From Vanrija pseudolonga (Eukaryota; Basidiomycota; Tremellomycetes; Trichosporonales; Trichosporonaceae): a stretch of 64,000 bases of DNA. This document shows, piece after piece, positions 36,798-58,221 of this stretch (positions within the stretch are counted from its first letter, which is position 1; each line of letters begins with the position of its first letter). A program made the position numbers and the translations under genes. The stretch is from positions 1,302,001 through 1,366,000 of the forward strand of contig NC_085852.1 of the NCBI RefSeq assembly GCF_020906515.1, in the 5' to 3' direction. The notes below the pieces were generated by a model. That model worked only from the letters and a program-made list of their open reading frames with translations. It made no database searches and was not told where the DNA came from.

Positions 36798-39700
36798 TTA
36801 TGTCTGAGTGGCAGCGGCCTCGGCACACGCCTGGAGGAGCACGCCGGGGACGTGTGGAAGAGACTTGGCGACCGTCTCCTGGGCAATGCGGACTAACACA
36901 TCGGGGCTGGAGTGAGCGGTGTTCGCGGGAGAGACAACTTACCTGACGCTTCCATACACTACATCGGCGGTGACGTTGACGTCCTTGAGCTCCTCGGGCC
37001 AGGAGATGAGTGTGCTTGGGCCAAGCTGGACTCTTAGGCGGGCGCGGGCGGACGCAGCGGGTAGCATCAGCGCCGCAGTGCATGTCAGCACGCCGTTCTC
37101 GAGCTTGAAAGTGGCCGGGTAGTAGATCGACAGCAAGTCGAGCTCGCCACGAATGTGTCGAGCGGCGGTCCACAGCTGCCCAACAGCGCGGACGAGGGCG
37201 GATAGGCTGGTGATTTGGTGCGCAGCCATGAGCTCGGCCAAGGCGCTGCGCGTGAGAGCGAGCAGGCCGGCGGTGGCGTCGTTACGTCCGGGGTTGACAA
37301 GGCTCAGCTGTGCGGTCTTGACGTCCTTGCTCTGAACACTGAGCAACAGCTCGCCTGCGAACACCAGCTCGACCTGGGCGCCCATGCGGACCACGCGGAA
37401 CCGGTGGAGCTCCTGCAAACTCTTCCACTCGCGCTCAAGGCGGATCACGTCCGAGGGCATGAACTGGTCGCACATGCTTCGAGCGACCTCTAGCGCAGCG
37501 TTGTGCTGCCCAGCCTCGGACGTGAGCTCAGTCAAGCGAGTCGAAAGCTCCTCGTTCTTGGCGGTCTTGGTCTCCAGTTCTGACCTGAATCGCTCAATCT
37601 CAACACTGTTTGAGGGTTAGCCTCCATTAGGCACAAGAGATCCACGTACTTTTGCTCAACAACAGCAGCCTTGAGATCCGCCAACTCCTCAGGGTCACAA
37701 GCAGCAATCTCGGCAACCTGCGCACGGCGCTTGGCCAGCTCAGCCTCGAGCTCTGCCTTGCGTGCACGGAGGTCGGGTAGCAGGCTGTCGGAGACTTCCT
37801 TGCTTGCAGCGTGGCGCGCCGCGTCAGACTTCATCTCCTCGACAATCTCCCTAAAGTCGGGGAGAATACGCTCCATGAGGCTCTGCTTCCAGTCGTACCA
37901 TTGAGAGCGGGCCCGCAGCTGGGTGTTGGCCTTGAACTCGCGCAGGGTGAACTCGAACAGCTGCCGGTCCTCGTCGTTGGCGCTGAGGTAATCGCGCACG
38001 ACGGCTGGGTTCTCGGCGTCACAGATGGCCTCTGTTGATGCGAGCTCTTCTTTGCCGGTATCGATGTCCGTCCTCATCTTCTGGATCGCCCAGTTGAACA
38101 TGTTGAGCAGGATACCCTCAATGTGGGCCTCGGCAAAGTCGTGGATGGCGTACTCGCGCTCGCCGCCATCTCCACGCCCGAGAACGCCCCGTCCAACGCT
38201 GCTACGACGACGGCGCGGGGCGGCAGGCAGGTCGTCCATGAACTGTGCTCCGACCATTTCCAGGAAAGTGGTCAGCTGAATAGGTGCGGCCTCTTCAGGC
38301 TCAGCGAGCTCATCTTCCTCCGGAAAGGCGGGAGATGGTGTAGGCGGCGGGAAAGTGAAGCCGAAGCCGAACGACTCGCGAACCACAATGCCCTCGGCAG
38401 GCGACTTCAGATGGCGGACTGGAGTACCCATCGACTTGCGAGGCATGCCGAGTGACTGACGACCCGGTGTGCCAGTGTACTGAGGGAGAGGGCGTTCGGG
38501 CTCCGGTGTTGGTGACCGCTCGACCTCCTCTTCGTCTCCCTGCACGTCCTCCTCAGCCACTTCCTCCTCGATGTCTTCCTCAACCGCCTCCTCAGCAAAG
38601 ACATTCGCTGTCGCCTGCTCGTGAGCAGTGTGGAAGTCGCCAGATGTGTCCTCAGTCGAGGCCTCGGCCTCGTCATCCTCCTCTGGGGCGGGTTCGGCCG
38701 CCTGCACAGAGGCGAAAATGTTCTTCACGGGCGACGGGGGCTTCTGTACAACCGTCTTCTTGGCGCTAGGGAAGACAACGTCCTCGTCGTCGCTGTCGGT
38801 GCGGGGTCGTTTCCGGGCGCTGGACGGCGTGGCTGGTGCTGTCTGCGGATGACGGAGCGGGGTAGTCGCTGCCACCTGGGAGGCAGAGGGTGGCACCGAG
38901 CGGGACAGAGATCCCGGGGTAGGGGCAGACGTAAAGTCCAGCTTCTTGGCAACGCTCGCCGCAGTTGCCATGCCAGTCGGTCGTGGCGCTGAGGTGCCTG
39001 GCATTTCTGGGCTGGCACCAAAGATATTGCGCTTTTGGGGAGCGGTAGCGGGGGGTTGAGGTGGCTTCGGAGCCGAAAGCGGGGCTGTGGACGACGGCCC
39101 AGCAGAACCACCGCGAGCGTCCCGGCTCTTCTGAGCAGACGAAGTGGTGGGTCGGGCGAATGACGGAGTGCCACCCGAGCTCTTGCTCGGTGTCCGCTTG
39201 GGCGTGCTGGCGCCTCCAAGAGACTGCCTCGAGCGGGAACTCTTGGCCGGGCTCTTGCTAGTGCTCTGCGCTAATCCCTGGCTGAATGTAGGCTCAGCCG
39301 GGGCAGAGACTGGCGGAGGCGCAAAAGGGTTGGATACTGATGCCTTGAGGGTGGAAGTAGCGACAGGCTTCGGCACCTTGATGGGAGATAACACAGGGTA
39401 AGCGAACGAACCAGCGGATAGGAAGTCGCCGGTGTTGTCATCTGCCGCCGGAGCAGCCGGGGTAGGGGCAAAGATGTTTGTCGACATGTTGTACGTTGCG
39501 GTCCTCTGTCGCAAGATACCACCGCCGACGGTGGTGAGCTCCATTCCGCTGGCATCACCGATGGTGTAGTTGAATGTACCGGTCACGGCGTCGGGGTTTC
39601 TGGTGCCGCCAGTGTCATCGCCAGAAGAGATACTCTCATCTGTACTGCCGTACACGCCACCGTAGACAGCCGTCTCATCCATCTCCATCTCGTCGGCATC

Positions 39701-40885
39701 GTGATCCAAGGCGTAGTCGCCTTCGCCAGGGAGAATCGGGGCTCCCTCGCTAGCTTCTGCGTGCGTGTATCCGATTGACGCGCGGGAGCGCATGGCCGTC
39801 TGTGGGGCGGTTGCTGGCATCGGTCCACCAAGAGCAACGGTAAAGTCCATAGTCTTCTCCTCGTCGTCGCCATTGTCGGTAGCCGGTTCGCTCTCGAGTT
39901 CCATGTCGTCGTCGTCTTCCTCGTCGTCTTCCCACTCCTGCTGCACGATACCCCCGCCAACCATCGTGTCCTCCATGTCCATCTCGCCTTCAGCGTCTTC
40001 GTCTTCTTCCTCGCTGAAGTCGGGGTTGACGTTGTCGTTCACGGCAAACGAGTTCATTGAGTTCGACGTGACCTGAGCCAGGATCTCATCCGAGTCGGCA
40101 GAGATGTCCGACGCCTCGCTCTCCGACTCGAGCTCCATCGACTCCTCACCCTGCCCCTCGCCTTCGCCCTGGAAGTAGATTGCAGGAGGAGGCTGGGATG
40201 CGTATTCGCTGGACAATGACTGGCGGCCCTGCTGCGAGGAGAGCGACGACCGGGCACGACGAGATGGGGATTGCGCCGTCGGCGCCGGGCGGAACGAGGC
40301 AGGTACGCCTAACGACTTGCGCGCAGGCTTCTTCTCAAACATCCTGCGATGTCAGATGGACGTGCATGAGTGCGAGGTAGAACACACCTGACATGGGCGC
40401 TCGGAGCAAAGCTGACTCGTCGCTTGGCGCCCAGGCTCTCGTGCGCGGATGTGACCGGTAAGCTGGCTCTTGGGCCCCTGCTCGAGCTTGCGTCCATGCG
40501 CGAGGGCAGGTCCCCGAAATGGATGGTTTCGGCCTGGGCATCGCTGATGCTGAAGTTGAATTGCGCTGTCGAGTCTTCCGTGACGGAGCCCTTGAGGATG
40601 GACTTGCGGGGTTGCTGGGGCAGTCAGTTACCGCCAACGCTGCAAGGCCTTCCAACTCACCGCAGAACGACGCAGCTTTTGTCCCTCGCTCAAGTTCTCC
40701 CATCCAACGGAGAAGCGCAAGCCTTCACCCCCCATGGATACAGTGGCACGCTTGTGGCCCTTAGTTCGCTGCTCCTGCTTGGTGATTGGAAGAGTGAGGT
40801 TGTCGTCGAAGGTGTTGAGGTTGTGATCGGATAACGTCGCTGCTGCCGATTGTCTGCGCCTCGGGGAGCGTGATGGGATGGACAT
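36798..40885 (-). CDS. SPC7: Kinetochore scaffold Spc7/Spc105/KNL1
   Basis: Five exons encode about 1,300 residues. The N-terminus, across two introns, carries the PP1-docking motifs in the usual order: RKSILKGS (SILK) and KRRVSFAP (RVSF). A long acidic, disordered region follows with MELT-like repeats: MEDTMVGGGI, MDFTVALGG, MEMDETAVYGG and MELTTVGGGIL, the sites phosphorylated by Mps1 to recruit Bub3-Bub1. After a Pro/Ser-rich linker, the Spc7 domain starts at LTTFLEMVGAQFMDDL and is followed by a coiled coil (ELEAELAKRRAQVAEIAA to ELSTRLTELTSE). The C-terminal RWD region that binds Mis12 includes EWKSLQELHRFRVVRMG and LDLLSIYYPATFKLENG. The ATG at 40885 starts a basic stretch MSIPSRSPRRRQS. 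Confidence 0.92.
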
Positions 40886-48701: not shown

Positions 48702-49055
48702 TTAGCGGCCGTCGGGGATCTCGCCCTCGAAGAGGTAACGGGGATAATCTGCCACTGATCAGCTGTGCCCAGCCCCGCCGCCAGACGCTGACGCCAACTT
48801 ACGCGTGTCGCACAGGTTGTAAAACTCGGTGGTGGCATCGGGGATGGTGTGGCCACCATCCCATGGGCAGCCGGCGAAGTCACACCATGGGGTGTCGCTG
48901 GACCACGAGCCGCCGCTCGAGTTGGTGTCCGTCGAGGACGCCGAGTTGTAGCCCGAGGACGAGGACTCGCCGTTGTTGTTGTTACGGGGCCTGGTGTGGG
49001 TGAGCGGTGCCGCGTGCTGACTGACTACTTACGCGACAAAGGTAGCCTTGGCCAT
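48702..49055 (-). CDS. Small C-x4-C-x18-C-x2-H protein, paralogue 1
   Basis: Three exons encode 85 residues. The start at 49055 gives MAKATFVA, then a spliced Asn/Ser/Gly-rich stretch (PRNNNNGESSSSGYNSASS), and the motif CDFAGC-x18-CDTH followed by HYPRYLFEGEIPDGR and stop. The second intron splits the His codon after its first base, as in the three paralogues downstream. Cys and His spacing would suit a zinc site. There is no signal peptide or membrane helix. It is the most divergent member: it lacks the Trp-Glu between the first two cysteines and the final P-x-W-x-K. I do not recognise a known family. Confidence 0.7.
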
Positions 49056-49330
49056 GTTGTCTTGTGGTTGTGGGTAAGGGTGGGGTGGTTGGAAGGAGGA
49101 GAGAGAGAGGAGTGAGAGAGTTGGTGAGGAGTCGAGAGCAGGCCACCAGAGGACTACTTATCCCCACCGCCGGGCCGTCCATCACTGGTCGCGACGGACC
49201 ACGACGAGTCCACCGACCCCAGCGGCCAAACACCCAAACACGAGGCTGCCGCACAACACACGACGCGGCGCGGCGCACGCCCTCGCCCCATCAACTCCTA
49301 GCGCTCGGACAGCGGGCGCAGGAGTGCGAG

Positions 49331-49409
49331 CGTGTGATGTGTGTGCTGCGTGTTGTGTGTCGCGGCTGTGTGTTGTGTGTCGGGGTGGGTGTGTCGTGTG
49401 TGTTCGAGG
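49331..49409. repeat. TG-rich low-complexity tract
   Basis: About 80 bp of irregular TGTGTG and GTGTTGTGTG repeats on the + strand, upstream of small-protein gene 1. Confidence 0.75.
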
Positions 49410-49623
49410 TCCGGTGGTGGTGGTCGAGTGGTGGAGTGGGGTCTAGTGGCACATGCCACTGTGGCACGGCAGGGGTGACTGATACGCAGGGGCCACTGGC
49501 TCCGTTCTCCGTGTTTGGCGTTTGCGCTTTTGTGCGTCTCATCATCCCAACAATGTGCATAAAACGCTGGACAAAGCAGCGCCTATACATGCCCGGGCGT
49601 TTGATCTACCATTAATCTACTCT

Positions 49624-49692
49624 ATTGACTCCCTGCTTATCTGACGGCTCAGTTCAGCCAGCGGACAGCTATTGAATCCCTGCTTATCTGAC
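49624..49692. repeat. Duplicated 22-mer carrying TTATCT (GATA) sites
   Basis: The 22-mer at 49624-49645 recurs at 49671-49692 with one mismatch. Both copies contain CCCTGCTTATCTGAC, whose TTATCT is the reverse complement of the GATA-factor site AGATAA. The copies start 47 bp apart. They lie between the F-box gene's stop and small-protein gene 1. Confidence 0.75.
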
Positions 49693-49790
49693 AGATCTGG
49701 TGGCCTCGCCTCCCTGGCCATGATACAGATCTGCGTTGATGTCTGCCCCACGCCCTCTATGTGACACGCCTGTCGTGTGCCCAACAGACC

Positions 49791-52353
49791 CTACCACGAC
49801 GGCGCAAGCCGCGGCGCCGCAATGGTGCTCTGCGCGATCGCCACCTCGTCGCCGCGGACCTCCTCGCCCCGCCCAAACGTCCACACAAGCAGCTCCTGCA
49901 CCTCGCTCCCAGCGACCTCGCCCACGTCCTGCAGGCGGAACAGCGCGACGCGCTGCGCGTCAAGCAGCAGCCCGTAGCCGAGGCGCTCGGCCTTCGAGTC
50001 GAGCCGCAGCTCGGGCGCGAGGCGGCGCCGCGTGGCGAGGAACGGCAGCCGCGTGACCACCGGCACGGCGAAGCCATCGAGCACTGTCGCGTCGGAACGC
50101 AGCACCGCGCTCCCGCCCTCCAGGCCGCGCTCGTCGACCGGGTCGAACCGGGGCACCTCGGCACCCGGCGCAAAGTCGTACACCTCGAGATCGAACACGC
50201 CGTTGTCGGCAGCGGTGTATGCGCTGCTGCCCTCGTGCCCGAACCCACGGAGCGCGGCGAAGCGGTACCCGTGCGCACGGGCCTCGTAGTCTGCTTCCCA
50301 GTAGTTCTGCCGTCAGCGCGCTGCGCTCAGCGTGGATAACCCACCTTGCACCCCTCGTTGTCGGCGGTCTCACGCGCGAAGAGCGCTTCGGGGAGGATAC
50401 GCGTGTTCTCCTCGCCCCAGTCCGCCCACCTGACTTCTGTCGGCGCCGTCGCCTGGCTGGCATGTGACCGCGCCAAGCTTGCCAGCTTCTCCTGACGCAT
50501 GAAGAGCGTGTAATCCTTCGGCGGACCATCAGCGCCCGTGACCTGGAACCCGAGGACGAGGACGCCAGTGTCGGCGTCGGTGTCAAAGTTGCGCGGGACA
50601 GCGTACGGCGACGGCGATGCCGCTGACGGCGGTGAAATCGGCCCATGGCCCAGGATGACCGCCTGCGTCATGCGCTGGTCGTCCGCGATGGGCGGGAGGA
50701 GGAAGCGCACGCTCGGCTCGGGGTCGCCCGGCCCGAGGATAAGCTTCAGAAAGTCCCCCGTGTCCAGGATCGGCGGCTTCGGGAGCCCTTCGGACGGCGA
50801 CTCGCTGTCCGAGTCGGCCCAGTTCTCGATCTCGATCTCCGGGTCCGAGTACACTTCCGAGGCCATGTCGGGGAACGGGTCGTCGTGGGGTGTGCCGGGG
50901 GGAGCAGTCTCAGCCGCGAATGTGCCGTTGGCGTCCGCTGTGGTTGATGGCGCACCATCGAGGGCGGCGAGCTCATCGATAACTGCATCGACGGCGGCGT
51001 CGTCGTCGCTGTCGAGACTCTCCCACTCATTGTCGCTGCCGTTGTCAACCTCATCATCGTCGTCGAGGCTACCAGAGCCACTGTCATTCTCATCGTCCGT
51101 CATACTGTCGTCGTCAGACATCTCTTCCGCGAGGGTCTCAACGATGTCCTTCGGCGGCAGCAAGTCGGCCCATTCATCTCTCGGCGGGATGGTATACACC
51201 TCGAGCGCAAGACGCGGATCGTGAGGTACATGCGCAGGCCTCGGGACGGCCCTCAGTGGCGCGACAGCTATCAGGTCGTCGGCGAGGAAGGTGAACGACG
51301 GCGAGTCGTGCGTCTCGGGCAGGGAGATGGTCTGCCGTCCGTCAGTCGTTACCTCACAGAACACACTCACGAGCGCCACCTGCCCCGTCGTCCAGTCAAA
51401 CACGACGATGAACGTGCCTCTGAGCACCCCGCGCTCCGTATCGCTATACTTGAACACAAGGGTCGCGACGAGATTCCCGCGAACAGCGACACAGTAGCTC
51501 CCGCCCTTCCAGGTATCGCGCGCGGGGCCCATCACGGACGTGGTGTACGTTTCCCTGGCGTCGACCTTGAGCATGATCACGGGGTGCTGCGCGCGCGGGT
51601 GCCCCTGTCCCGTCGACAGCGAGAGGATGTGGAAGCGGGTCGTGCACGTCGAGTCCGAGTGCCACAGGTCCTCGGTGAGGAGGAGCAGGTCGGCCTGCGC
51701 GTCGATGCCGGCGATGCACGTCCACGAGCGGTACAGCAGGCGCCGGGTGAACGGGAAGTCGTCTTCGTCGCCGAAGTCGTTCGCGAGCCGCTGGTCGACA
51801 CGCCCAAAGTCCACGCTGATCCAGTTCCGGTGGAACCCCTCGAGGCTGTCGGCCTCCTCCTCCGCCTCGCTCATGTTGTCGCTCACGCCCGCGTGCCGGT
51901 GGATCACGACTAGCCCCGACGAGAAGTCGTGCTCCTCGGCGCGGTTGCCCGGCATGTCGAACCGCTGGAACTTGTGCGGCGTGAGCGTGCGCCAGGCGGT
52001 TTCCTGGGCGCGGAGCGCGGCGACCTTGGAGCCGAGTGTCTGGCGCTCCGGCGGTGGGGGCGTGGAGGCTGGACCGGCGGGATCCGCATCCGCAAGAACA
52101 TCGCTCTCGGCCGCTGCTGCCGGTTGCAGAGCCACCGGCTCAACATTCACGTACCCCCCGCCCGTGACGGCGGCCTTGTACCACTGCACGGCCGAGCACG
52201 ATCTGTACGCGCCGCCGAACTGTCGGCATGTCTGTTGGGTGTGAGCGCGAGGAGGGCCAAAGGACTTACCTCGGACAAGCGCGCGGCGTCGCGTACCGAA
52301 GAGTGCGAGAACACGGCGTGCAGGAGCTCGTCGGGGAGTTGTAGTATGCTCAT
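49791..52353 (-). CDS. Large F-box protein
   Basis: Three exons (two introns of 38 nt each) encode 828 residues. The F-box is at the very start, split by the first intron: MSILQLPDELLHAVFSHSSV, then RDAARLSETCRQFGGAYRSC. The rest is a long region with beta-strand-like repeats (FHILSLSTGQ, YCVAVRGNLVATLVF, TFIVVFDWTTGQVALVSVF, FTFLADDLIAVAPL), which suggests a propeller-like substrate-binding part. An acidic, disordered insertion near residues 400-480 (DDDSMTDDENDSGSGSLDDD) interrupts it. It probably recruits a substrate to an SCF ubiquitin ligase; the target is unknown. It lies between members of the small-protein family. Confidence 0.85.
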
Positions 52354-53203
52354 GGCGTGTGTGATGAGGAGATGAAAGTGAAGTTGTTGGTTGTCGATGG
52401 CGCCAAGAACTTCGTCGCCGTTGCCGATCCCGCGCGTCGCGTCGCGTCCCGCGTCGGTTCAGGACCAAATAACATTACCGCCTTGTCGTTTCGGGCTGGG
52501 CCGAATGTGGCACCTGGCAATCACCAGCGGCATCCGATGAGGTGGGTCACTGGAGATTCATAGCACAGCGCCTGTCTCACAGCGCTCTCGGTAGAGGGAA
52601 TATTGGGGGGTGGGCAACATAAGAGTGGCACTGGGCTACACGAAATGTACGACATGTTTATCGCATTCCAGTCATGCCGAGCCGCGCGGCACGGCGCGGC
52701 GCGGCGTCGGTCGCCGCTGTGCAATGATGACCGCGTTTGACCGAGCCGAGATGCCACACCTCCTCGCCCGACATCGGCACCGGCCACCACCTACACCCCA
52801 GATACACTACCGCACTGGCCGCTGCAGCACTGACGCTACTCACCCCCCGCCTCCCCACAGGTACGTCGTCGCGCACGGGCGGGCGGGCGCGCCGGTCGGT
52901 CAGTGGGTCGGCTGACATGCCGCTTGGCTGCAGCCTCTCGCCCCTCTCCCTGCTGCCTCTGCTGCCGCCAACCACCGCCGCACCCGCCGGTCACGCGAGC
53001 CGCACGCACGCTCCTGCGGCTCTGGCTCGCTGATTCTGTAGGCGAGGCGAGGTGTACGGCGCAGGCGAAACACTCGCCCAGATTTGCCGCCAACCCCGAC
53101 GACCCCTCGCCTCCCTCCATGCGTCGTCACACGATGACGAGGTATATAGCGAGTTGTGCGGGGAGGCTCGTCGCCGCCTCGCCCCATCCCATCCGTCAAC
53201 AAC
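52354..53203 (+). promoter_or_regulatory. Divergent intergenic region, F-box gene / small-protein gene 4
   Basis: This 850-bp gap lies between divergent starts. It contains a TATATA element near the right end and short GGCGC/CGGCG runs; no gene is visible. Confidence 0.45.
53143..53148 (+). promoter_or_regulatory. TATA box of small-protein gene at 53204
   Basis: TATATA lies 61 bp before the start codon at 53204. Confidence 0.55.
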
Positions 53204-53569
53204 ATGTCCACCCACACCCACGTTTCCGCAACCTCGCACTCGCACCGGCCGTACGCTCTCCCTTGCTGCCACTGCTCATGCCAGATCCCTCGCGCGCCTC
53301 TTCTCGCGCCCACTCGCAACATGTATCTGGGAGAACTGCGCGAGCAGCGCGTCGATCAACGCCAACACGTGTCTTTTCTGCGACCTGCGTGAGTAGATTG
53401 TTGTGTGTCGCCAGTCGACGTGCCGTGGCGTGCGTGGCGTCGGGCGAGACGACTCACACCGAACGGGGACGACAAACGGACAGGAGGGGGCGAGACAGCC
53501 CGCTGATCACTCAGACTACGCCTTGTACTTTTACCACGGGACACGGCCATCCTGGGTCAAGTCATAGCC
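53204..53569 (+). CDS. Small C-x4-C-x13-C-x2-H protein, paralogue 2
   Basis: Three exons encode 67 residues. Introns are 53251-53284 (34 nt, donor GTACGC) and 53389-53514; with both removed the frame is continuous from MSTHTHVSATSHSHRPSLAR through TCIWENC, 13 residues, CDLH and the tail HYALYFYHGTRPSWVKS. The second intron splits the His codon after its first base. No signal peptide or membrane helix is visible. Reading through the first intron would change frame and lose the cysteine motif, which supports the spliced model. A TATA box lies 61 bp upstream. The function is unknown; a small zinc-binding fold is a reasonable guess. Confidence 0.75.
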
Positions 53570-54314
53570 TGGTGCGCGCGGCGCCGGACGCCAGGCAGAG
53601 AGGCTGAAAGGCCCTCGTTTGCTCGCTCGCTCCCTACCCCTCGCACGGCCCACCACCGTCGCTCAGCCCACACCCCCGCACCCCTCGTCCTCATCCTCGC
53701 TCGTCGCCCGCCATCCATCCATCCCCTGTACTGTACTCGTTTGACCTATTGTACCACCCACCCTGCCACCATGCACACACTTATCGGAGAACGGCCAGCT
53801 AGCGAGCAGTTTCGGGGTCCCCTTGCTCATCCCCGTGGCGGTGTGCGTGTTGTCCATGCCTGTCACGCGAGAACAATAGCCCGCTCGTCGGGCCATGTCA
53901 GCCGTGAAACTTGAAACACCGCTCGGACCGGCACGAGTCTGCTGACACGAGGCGAGGCAACATGACGAATGCAGGCACACGGAGGGGCCGACAAAGGCGC
54001 GCTGTGACCAGAGTCCGAGTCCAAGGAGGTGCGCGAGGTGCAAGGGCGACGGGCGACGGGCGACACGCACACGAGGCTGCTTTGGCCGCCGGGCCCGTGA
54101 GTGACGGCCGGTGCGGCGTCGCTCCAGCCATCCAGAGTGTGTGTGTGTGTTGTGTGCGTGATGACCTCCTGCGGCCACGAGGCAATGACCAAACACACAA
54201 ACACACACCCACACATCATTCATTGTCCGTGCCATCCATCAGGCCATCAAGCCGACGCGCCCACCGCGCCCACACACGCCGTCGACATGAATCCCGCACG
54301 CACCCCTTCGCACT

Positions 54315-54366
54315 GACACACACACATCACACACACACCCGCACACGCACACACACCATCACACAC
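54315..54366. repeat. CA-rich microsatellite
   Basis: About 50 bp of interrupted (CA)n on the + strand; a shorter TG run lies at 54137-54158. Confidence 0.8.
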
Positions 54367-54498
54367 TGGCGCCACGGCGTCACTCGCCATGTGCCACACT
54401 CCACCCATCACCCTCTGGATGAAACCGGCCATCAAACTGCTGCTTTCTTTGTTGCGTGCAGCGGGTTGACTGACGGCGCGAGACTGCTACTGAGAATG

Positions 54499-54504
54499 TA
54501 TAAG
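54499..54504 (+). promoter_or_regulatory. TATA box of small-protein gene at 54620
   Basis: TATAAG lies 121 bp before the start codon at 54620, followed by a C/A-rich leader. Confidence 0.55.
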
Positions 54505-54577
54505 TTGGGATCATTCGGGATGTCTGCTCGTCATTCACACCAACAACTCTCAACCACTTCTCAACCAAGTCTCACCT

Positions 54578-54608
54578 CAACCCAAACCCAACCCAACCCA
54601 ACCCAAAC
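54578..54608. repeat. CCCAA short tandem repeat in a 5' leader
   Basis: Five to six tandem AACCC/CCCAA units lie just before the start codon at 54620, probably transcribed as part of the 5' UTR. It is too short and interior to be a telomere. Confidence 0.7.
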
Positions 54609-54619
54609 CACCAGCCAAC

Positions 54620-55095
54620 ATGTGCCAGCGCAAGTAAGTCACGCCTCCACCACCACACTACATGCTTCTTCTGCGCCAAGCTACATAGCCTCCCGGCTGC
54701 ACTCGCTTCTCCCGCCCACATGCACACACACTAACACCGCCCAGCACTTCCGCTCCCGTTAACCGTAACGACACCGAGGAGGAGGAGCTCCCGCAGTTCG
54801 ATTTTACCACCTCGTACGAGGGTATCTGCTGCTGGGAGATGTGTATGGTCCCGATTCAGGACCTCCCCCGTACCGACAAGCTCTGTGGTTCCCGTGAGTG
54901 TCGTGTCTGCTTTGCTCTGCATTGGGCCAGTGTGTCTGTCTGCTTTGGGCCGCTGTGTGGCCTTTGGACGGCCGTGTTCACGCAACCCCCTTCAACTTCA
55001 AACTTTCACCCCGCACTGCGCCATGCTGACAACCACCACCACCAGATTATATGGACTACTATTTCTACAACAAGATCCCCGGCTGGACCAAGTAA
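54620..55095 (+). CDS. Small C-x4-C-x13-C-x2-H protein, paralogue 3
   Basis: Three exons encode 70 residues. Introns are 54634-54744 and 54894-55045. The protein starts MCQRNTSAPVNRNDTEEEEL, has an acidic stretch, then the motif CCWEMC-x13-CGSH and the tail HYMDYYFYNKIPGWTK. The second intron splits the His codon after its first base, exactly as in the relatives. The first exon encodes only four and two-thirds codons. No targeting signal is visible. TATA promoter and long leader suggest regulated expression. The function is not recognised. Confidence 0.75.
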
Positions 55096-56486
55096 ACGCC
55101 CCGGCGTTCGCTCGGCGCCGCCGCCACAAAGGACCCGTTCACTCGGGGACTTTGCCTCAAGTCCTTTCCGTTCCGTCCGTTAGTTTCGTCACGCAGCATG
55201 CTGGCGGCCTCCCAGCCGTTTCAGCCCTCTCCACTCAATCCCATTGTTTAGATAAATAGATGTCATTGTGTCACAGTTTCGAGCGTGCGGCAAGGAGTGG
55301 CGTGGGACGGCGCGGCCAGGGGGGTGGCGTTGGTGTGTGTGTCGCGGACGTGGGCGTGCTTCTGCGCCTCGCCGCCGCCGCCACATTAAAGATCTCCGTT
55401 GCGTGCGCCGTCTTCGAGCGCGGACTAGGTGCGGGGCGGGTGAGCAAGAGTTTGCTGAGGGGTAGTGGCAGTTTCAAGGACGTGCATCGGCTGAATTCTC
55501 GTGCATTCAGCAGTGCTGCTCGGCGTCGTGGCTCCGCCGATGGGGCACTGCCTTTGTCGCGCCCCCACAACAAGCTCTGACTCGTCGGACTTGCGCAGCA
55601 GTGCACGCAGTACGTCCGCAATACTCGGTGCGTGTTATATAAGCGTGCGTACGGTGGAGACCATGGCCGCTCGGCGCACGCTCACAACCCATCTTTGCAG
55701 CTCACTCGTCATCGGCCGCCACCACCCACTCCGACACCCACCCCGAAAGAACAGGACCCCGTCGTGCCGTCGCACTATCCTCCTTCCGCGGAACGGCGAT
55801 CAGCAGGCACGCATCCACGTAAGTAGTAATCTAAGCGAGGTGTGGGCACATGTGCATCGTCCAGATCAGTAGCGGCGGTAGTCTTGTCGGCGCCGAGTCT
55901 CACGACGGCGTGGGTGTAAGGCGGCGGGGCGGCACCCACACACCCGTGTCCGAGGCATGTCGGGATCCCCGGATCGTCGCTTGCATACGCTCTAATGTGA
56001 TGCATAGTTCGTATTACGAATAATGCGCTGTTCCCGAGCGACCGCGACGGGTTATCGCAGGCCAGGCGACAGCGCACCAAAGACGCAAGTGGAGCATGGA
56101 GCGAGGCCAAGTCTGACCCCGCTCGCTCGCTGCCAGTCGACATTCCGCGATCTGCAGGAACGTAGATCGTCGTCACATGCTCCCAGCAACGACATGCCGC
56201 TCGGCGTGTCTATATCGGGACGGCGGTCGGATTGGTATTTACGTGCGTGTAATGCTTCTGCGGTGCGGCGTGCTGCACGGCGTGGGTGCTGCGGTGTCGT
56301 GCGGTGCCGGCGCGGCGCGGCGGATCTGGGCTGGGCGTCGGCGGGGTGTGGGATACCTCTTCTCGAGGCGGAGTCAGAGCATTGTTGCTGGGCGAGCATC
56401 CCCCAGCGTGATGTATATAAAAGGGGGCCTCTAGTGGACAACGAGGAGCAGCATCAACCCCCTCCCCAACACATCACACAAGCACC
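55096..56486 (+). promoter_or_regulatory. Upstream region of the SDR gene, with an orphan TATA box
   Basis: This 1.39-kb gap ends in the SDR promoter. A TATATAAG element at 55636-55643 faces right with no obvious gene behind it; 176 bp later there is a strong splice donor (GTAAGTAG at 55819). No frame here shows the small-protein motif. Confidence 0.4.
56414..56423 (+). promoter_or_regulatory. TATA box of the SDR gene
   Basis: TATATAAAAG lies 73 bp before the start codon at 56487; the close match to the TATA consensus suggests a strong, regulated promoter. Confidence 0.7.
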
Positions 56487-57365
56487 ATGGCCCCCCGCCT
56501 CGAGAACAAGATCGCCATCGTGAGTTCACCTCGCGGCGACTGACTGACCCCAGGTCACCGGCGCCGCAGGCGGCATCGGCTCCGCCATCGTGTCGCACTT
56601 CCTCTCCGAGGGCGCGCGCGTCGTGGGCGTCGACCTCGTCGAGCCGGCGCACAAGGCCGACGGTGTCGTGTTCGTCACTGGCTCCGTGGCGTACGTGCTT
56701 CTTGCCTCTCGTACCTCCGCTCACGCCCCTAGCTCCCCTGACACTTGGGACAAGGCCCTCGCTGCCGCCACCAAGGCCCACGGCACGCCCACCATCCTCG
56801 TCAACGCGGCTGGTATCCTCGTGCAGCAGCCGTTCGCGGACACGACCCTCGCCAACCTCGACAAGGTGCTCGACGTCAACGTCCGCGGCCCGCTTGTCGG
56901 GATGCAGAAGCTCGTCGCGGGGCTGAACGGTGCGCCGGGCGCCATTGTCAACATCTCGAGCGTGAGTGCGACCCAGCAGCAAAGCTCACCACGCCCAGGT
57001 GACCGCCGAGCGCGTCTTCCCCACCTGCGCAGCGTACGGCGTGTCCAAGGCCGCGCTGTCGACGCTCACGCGCTACGCGGCGGCAGAGTACGGCGCGCTC
57101 GGCGTGCGCGCCAACGCCATCGCGCCCGGCGCGGTCGACACGCGTGAGTCGAGGTCCCGTTGGTGCAATGCTCACGCCCACAGCCATGAGCGCCGAGGGC
57201 CTCCGTGTCCCCCAGAACGAGATGGGCCTCAAGATGCACACGCCGCTCGGGCGCTGGGCGGAGCCCGAGGAGATCGCGCCGCTTGTGGCCTTCCTCGCGA
57301 GCGACGAGGCGAGCTTCGTCACGGGGCAGGTGTATGGCATTGACGGCGGCTATTCGATTCTCTAG
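56487..57365 (+). CDS. Short-chain dehydrogenase/reductase (SDR)
   Basis: Five exons encode about 245 residues. The start gives [20 protein letters not shown], with the glycine-rich cofactor loop TGAAGGIG split from the start by a 33-nt intron. NAAG appears in [13 protein letters not shown]. The catalytic Ser is in VNISSV, and the Tyr/Lys pair is in [26 protein letters not shown] and the C-terminal [16 protein letters not shown] are classical. Asp after strand 2 ([12 protein letters not shown]) points to NAD rather than NADP. The substrate is unknown. It sits between two members of the small-protein family and shares their TATA-type promoter. Confidence 0.9.
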
Positions 57366-57946
57366 GCGGTGTGGGGGTGGGGGTGGGACTGATTGTATGT
57401 ACCGTACTTCTACGTATGCAGTGTGTGGCGCGAGAGCCGTTGGAGGCGCGTCTCGCCTCCTGCGGTAGGCACTGCAGTGCACATGACGGTGCGTTCCACG
57501 ACTACAACTTCCTCATGCAGTCCTCGCCGCTTCTCTGGAATGTGGCACTACCCACCAGCGTCAGCGGCGCCGCAGCGCACAACGCACAATGCGTCGTCGT
57601 CGCGCACGCACCCCGCACAGACCGCCACTCGCCACTCGCCACTCGGCGCGTCGTCGGCAGTCGGCCACGCCCGCCCGACCGGCCCGAACCACCACACAGA
57701 AGAAGCACTCCGCCCGTGCCACTCAGCACACAAGTGTGCACATGTGCGCGCGTGGGTGGGCGTGGGCGTGCTTGGCAGACTGCGGAGGGCGGGGGGACGC
57801 GAGAGGGGCCCTCGGGCGCAGAGAGTACAAGAGGGCGCGCGGCGTTGCGCGTGCTGCTCTCGTGTCTGTCCCCAGTGACTGACTACTGCTCCTTGTCGAT
57901 TGTCTCTTGACTTTGCAACCAATCGCCACCGACAACAACGACCGCC
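57366..57946 (+). promoter_or_regulatory. Intergenic region upstream of small-protein gene at 57947
   Basis: This 581-bp gap contains the SDR 3' flank and the promoter of the next small gene. CACTCGCCACTCG-type direct repeats lie near 57628-57645. No TATA box is evident, unlike the two related genes to the left. Confidence 0.4.
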
Positions 57947-58221
57947 ATGGCCCGCTGGCACTTCATGCAAGTGTCCCCCTCGGTCGCCTGCTCACCCCCC
58001 AGCGCCCCGCTAAACACCTGGCAGCTGCCCCCGTGGAAGGCGTGTATCTGGGAGGACTGCCCGCGCGAGGCGCTAATGCTCGTCTCGAGCGAGCTCTTCT
58101 GTGGCCCGCGTGCGTGTCGTGCGTCTCCCACGCCAGGCTAACATGCCCAGACAACGATGCCTACTTCCGCCGCTGGGAGCGTCCGCGCTGGCTCAAGCCG
58201 AGCCAGGACCCGCCGGCGTAG
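57947..58221 (+). CDS. Small C-x4-C-x13-C-x2-H protein, paralogue 4
   Basis: Two exons with intron 58110-58150 (41 nt) encode 77 residues. The protein reads MARWHFMQVSPSVACSPPSA, then a Trp/Pro stretch, the motif CIWEDC-x13-CGPH and the tail HNDAYFRRWERPRWLKPSQD. The intron splits the His codon after its first base, as in the other three. Trp-Glu between the first two cysteines and the P-x-W-x-K end are shared with paralogues 2 and 3. No signal peptide or membrane helix is visible. The function is unknown. Confidence 0.75.

Follow-up and report, generated by a model that had tools for sequence, protein, structure and literature searches.

Small zinc-finger proteins are a known kind of object. 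The treble clef has been described as a zinc knuckle, a loop, a beta-hairpin and an alpha-helix in this order, in which two ligands are provided by the knuckle and two by the N-terminus of the helix (PMC4999995), the A20-type finger as C-x2-4-C-x11-C-x2-C (PMC9570247), and the tandem CWCH2 motif as two fingers of the form Cys-X-Trp-Xn-Cys-Xn-His-Xn-His (PMC2837044). Within a window of 64,000 nucleotides from Vanrija pseudolonga (Tremellomycetes, Trichosporonales), which denotes the whole stretch of DNA analysed and lies on contig C4 of the searched genome (9 contigs, 24.87 Mb), we have found four small spliced genes, g1 to g4, that belong, as judged by sequence comparison, to a family of at least six members. 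The family is new and has been grouped by no source that we have met. The initial annotation, made from the sequence alone, had proposed these four genes, and their splicing has been reproduced as follows (window coordinates):

49055-49033, 48990-48803 and 48748-48702, minus strand: exons of g1, 85 residues, C-x4-C-x18-C-x2-H, NCBI entry LOC62_04G005774
53204-53250, 53285-53388 and 53515-53567, plus strand: exons of g2, 67 residues, C-x4-C-x13-C-x2-H
54620-54633, 54745-54893 and 55046-55095, plus strand: exons of g3, 70 residues, C-x4-C-x13-C-x2-H, NCBI entry LOC62_04G005776
57947-57966, 58003-58109 and 58151-58221, plus strand: exons of g4, probably 65 residues, C-x4-C-x13-C-x2-H
57967-58002, plus strand: proposed intron 1 of g4, GC-AG, 36 nucleotides, GCAAGT...CAG, acceptor at 58002

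The gene ends proposed initially have held for g1, g3 and g4, whereas g2 ends at 53567, two bases earlier; likewise, the sizes of 85, 67 and 70 residues have been borne out, and the 77 residues given for g4 are probably wrong. Two splicings of g4 compete, one with a single intron and 77 residues and one with the added 36-nucleotide GC-AG intron and 65 residues. The latter is probably correct, because its intron 1 is in phase 2 like that of g1 to g3 and because the protein is colinear with Q8F55_000199 of the sister species V. albida (64 residues); the 65-residue protein begins MARWHFIAPLNTW and its V. albida counterpart MAHWHFWPPINTW. Under this model the first intron is a phase-2 intron and the second a phase-1 intron in g1 to g4 alike, and the second interrupts the codon of the motif His, the fourth ligand, each time. 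These common phases, together with the common His-splitting position, are the strongest sign of common descent of g1 to g4. The least certain part of the set is the first exon of g2 with its 34-nucleotide first intron (GTACGC donor), which is to be taken as a candidate model.

The motif C-x4-C-x13/18-C-x2-H has been seen in all four proteins as proposed, the 18-residue spacing in g1 only, and both W-E between the first Cys pair and the final P-x-W-x-K recur in every gene except g1. The N-termini had been said to differ completely, which holds in part only, since the exon 1 phase is the same in 4/4 models and A-P-x-N is found near the N-terminus of g1, g3 and the 65-residue g4 (P-P-I-N in V. 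albida g4). The expectation that the genes would be unannotated has failed for g1 and g3, whose NCBI entries agree letter for letter, and fits g2 and g4, which have not been found in the protein database, where 4/6 members (g1, g3, m5 and m6, the last two described below) are present.

How often such an arrangement arises by chance has been estimated by scanning the window for C-x4-C-x8-22-C-x2 combined with a donor in phase 1 and with an acceptor restoring the His, with 100 dinucleotide-shuffled windows as the null. The scan returns exactly g1 to g4 (4) compared with 2 matches in the 100 shuffled windows (mean 0.02), with spacing limits that had been chosen after the genes had been seen. The observation of four genes is real. 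With H-x3-aromatic added, the counts are 4 and 0; four tail versions were tried, one of which, with a wrong Pro spacing, fitted 0 real genes.

The family has also been sought in relatives through the protein database, and three V. albida orthologs have been retrieved:

Q8F55_000199: ortholog of g4, core Cys/His intact
Q8F55_000202: ortholog of g3, core Cys/His intact
Q8F55_000204: ortholog of g1, core Cys/His intact

Each entry is given with a contig of length 3,975,977, and the gene numbers are compatible with the order g4, g3, g1 and would leave room for intervening genes as in V. pseudolonga. The protein database searches have yielded no V. albida g2. Between the two species, the cores agree at 42/45 (g4), 37/39 (g3) and 33/43 positions (g1) and the N-termini at 14/19, 18/28 and 29/42, respectively, so that in these alignments the finger is better kept than the N-terminus, clearly in g3 and g4 and little so in g1. 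Searches of about 5.8 billion proteins have found the family only in V. pseudolonga and V. albida; other relatives are possible, because the database search reaches only annotated proteins that have five-residue words in common with the query. Among the matches listed, no literature title or abstract opening names such a family.

The family had been presented as a four-member cluster. All four members are indeed in the window, and two more have been located elsewhere in the genome, along with a broken copy:

C7 near 1,271,600: m5, 76 residues with a hydrophobic N-terminus, a single intron that splits the His codon, identical to NCBI entry LOC62_07G009358
C1 near 180,700: m6, 77 residues, x23 spacing, two introns in phases 2 and 1, identical to NCBI entry LOC62_01G000077
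C7 362758-362808 (locus L104, 1493-1558): broken m5 copy, exon 3 at 94% over 66 bases

C-x-W-[ED]-x2-C occurs at 77 genome places compared with 59 for the reversed control pattern; all 77 have been screened, and finger, donor and tail have been found together in three window genes, m5 and m6, with m6 emerging once the spacing and intron limits had been widened. One more place (L054) has finger and donor without the tail. The tail pattern occurs at 20 places compared with 15 for its control, and only the four window genes have qualified. This pattern screen, which could miss a member lacking both W-[ED] and the tail pattern, has found no member within 20 kb either side of the window. Protein searches of the genome with g1, g2, g3, m5, m6 and V. 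albida g4 as queries have recovered the corresponding genes as well as the broken copy of m5, plus weak matches at two places, L105 (39%, E 0.106) and L108 (32%, E 0.159). The broken copy is accompanied by a 74% match over 179 columns and adjoins a long hexamer repeat, and the finger exon of m5 has no match in the 3-kb locus around it.

Across the family, the positions that never vary are, apart from Met1, three Cys, one His and one Pro in 9/9 aligned sequences, each of which contains a single C-x4-C-x13/18/23-C-x2-H motif. In leave-one-out profiles, 8/9 held-out sequences have scored above all 20,000 shuffles, with E-values from 0.0023 (m5) to 1.6e-9 (g2). Several observations weigh against the reading adopted here: V. 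albida g1 has come 16th in the same test, behind shuffles; the NCBI entry of g1 is missing from one database match list although it is a row of the query alignment; alignments A1-A3 and A5 misplace the first Cys pair of g1, which A4 and A6 place; and g4 is likely absent from the database, where the V. albida g4 cluster stands for two sequences of which one has been seen. Of these alignments, A4 carries g4 in its 77-residue version and m6 starting at the second Met, and the structure model of g3 was built from A5. The result is modest but solid: the family is real, partly kept in the sister species and outside the library families. Two annotation projects have caught it in part, and its kept core, variable N-termini and clustered, dispersed and broken copies make it a tractable case for the origin and diversification of lineage-restricted zinc modules.

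The earlier statement that no named family with this pattern was known has been supported within the libraries searched. Pfam gives nothing above the curated cut-off for nine entries, the three weak rows below it including DUF5903 on m6, and NCBIfam, which is made for genomes of bacteria and archaea, gives no row for five entries; no enzyme family has been matched in these scans. Searched against PDB sequences, g3 and alignment A6 have no match, and the core alignment A7 has four weak rows, none of them significant, namely Zap1 (1zw8, E 0.35), Serpin B9, Cep192 and Transcriptional adaptor 2-like protein.

Regarding the fold, the AlphaFold model of V. albida g4 (mean predicted local distance difference test score 68) has strands at 31-34 and 37-40 and a helix at 41-48 starting at C40-x2-H43, and the g3 model contains the helix and no hairpin. 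These low-confidence models are compatible with a treble-clef zinc finger, which is to be taken as a hint. Their structure matches are insignificant, and many are zinc proteins (GATA, LIM, ZZ, A20 ZF7). The V. albida g4 model may resemble treble-clef fingers such as GATA and LIM in its knuckle, its hairpin and a helix that opens with the second pair of ligands, in the order given for the treble clef, with weak fold matches, whereas no sequence kinship with them has been found, the family is Cys3His with C-x4-C and C-x2-H, and the protein comprises little beyond the finger. The first finger of the plant SBP/SPL proteins is likewise a Cys3His finger of similar spacing. Foldseek has returned 8j49_A, from an entry that holds AtSPL5 and possibly AtSPL5 itself, with a root-mean-square deviation of 2.1 over 30 columns; however, its E-value is 5.3 and its probability 0.07, and the family is without a second finger. 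No SBP row has turned up in the general Pfam scans, none of which was aimed at SBP.

Taken together, the proteins are rather likely to be intracellular single-zinc protein-interaction modules, so far of Vanrija only, although any given partner would be much less probable. A family of zinc-binding microproteins had been proposed initially. Intron phases, leave-one-out profiles, V. albida orthologs and the absence of any domain match above cut-off support such a family outside the curated ones. Its gene structures, its homology and the conservation of three genes in the sister species are demonstrated, whereas we infer the zinc, from the ligand pattern and the low-confidence models, as well as the fold and the protein-binding role. 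One zinc would be bound by three Cys and one His, with C-x4-C as the knuckle and C-x2-H at the helix start, within a small fold like a treble clef, the tail, which is aromatic and contains Pro, may pack on or beside the zinc core, and the short, variable N-terminus would stay mostly disordered. One structural zinc is suggested, and neither disulfides nor a metal store, because the only Cys are those of the motif in 5/9 sequences (g1, g4, V. albida g4, m5 and m6) and the His is invariant. DNA binding is not suggested by the net charge, which ranges from -8 to +3. Such a module would most likely bind a partner, either as adapter or as competitor, and would be neither an enzyme nor a DNA-binder nor a metal store, and the paralogs may have arisen by local and dispersed duplication, followed by divergence in partner or timing.

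Among other origins, a single finger re-wired from a C2H2 finger of the CWCH2 type (C-x-W-x2-C), which as a microprotein would interfere with C2H2 factors, is improbable, yet has fared best. The first half of the motif is shared with the CWCH2 fingers of Zap1, Gli, Zic and PacC; C-x-W-[ED]-x-C fits the Zap1 fingers locally in the 1zw8 row mentioned above, and weak Pfam rows fall on the first Cys pair (zf-C2H2_15, E 0.051; Zap1_zf1, E 0.2). However, all these matches lie under the curated cut-offs and cover 7-13 residues only, the third ligand is Cys instead of His, giving C-x2-H instead of H-xn-H, the finger is single and not tandem, and g1 lacks the Trp.

A slightly smaller chance may be given to an A20-like finger that binds ubiquitin, as some A20 fingers do, and that has exchanged its fourth Cys for His, the family then being a young, genus-specific one in which this module has been duplicated and diversified into stand-alone microproteins with their own promoters, reading ubiquitin or another conserved partner. 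The ligand spacing is similar to that of A20 ZF7, with one full-length structural superposition, whereas the fourth ligand is His and the spacing 13-23 instead of 11. Up to an E-value of 10 and within the HMMER filters, none of nine protein entries has a zf-A20 (PF01754) row (g4 in one scan as the 77-residue model), and the zf-A20 profile has no match in the V. pseudolonga genome, with control genomes that were uninformative.

Secreted, disulfide-bonded cysteine-rich peptides are a still poorer explanation: the proteins are small, contain Cys and come from strongly diverged paralogs, but 5/9 sequences have exactly three Cys, an odd number, the His is invariant, and no signal peptide is evident by eye, the hydrophobic stretch of m5 being the only candidate. 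That the genes are spurious and their motif and splice sites coincidental, as their shortness and the GC-rich sequence might suggest, is hardly credible given the chance expectation, the identical intron phases and the identical NCBI annotation of two genes, and is very unlikely for g1, g3 and g4 because of their annotated V. albida orthologs.

Upstream of the genes, TATA(A/T)A is found at -61 of g2 and TATAAG at -121 of g3. No 8-mer is common to five or six of the six family promoters, the maximum being four (background mean 0.21 in five). GTGGCA/TGCCAC occurs upstream of 5/6 family genes (g1, g2, g3, g4 and m5, not m6). Two genes outside the family stand between its members:

49757-52353 (low end approximate), minus strand: large gene between g1 and g2, F-box-like start by eye
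56487-57365 (ends by eye), plus strand: gene for a short-chain dehydrogenase, located between g3 and g4, frame 56590-57147 matching PF13561 and PF00106

Two unspliced frames of the former have no Pfam match. Elsewhere in the window, a 936-residue frame on the minus strand (37532-40342) has shown a strong Pfam match to the Spc7 kinetochore protein (E 1.9e-38).
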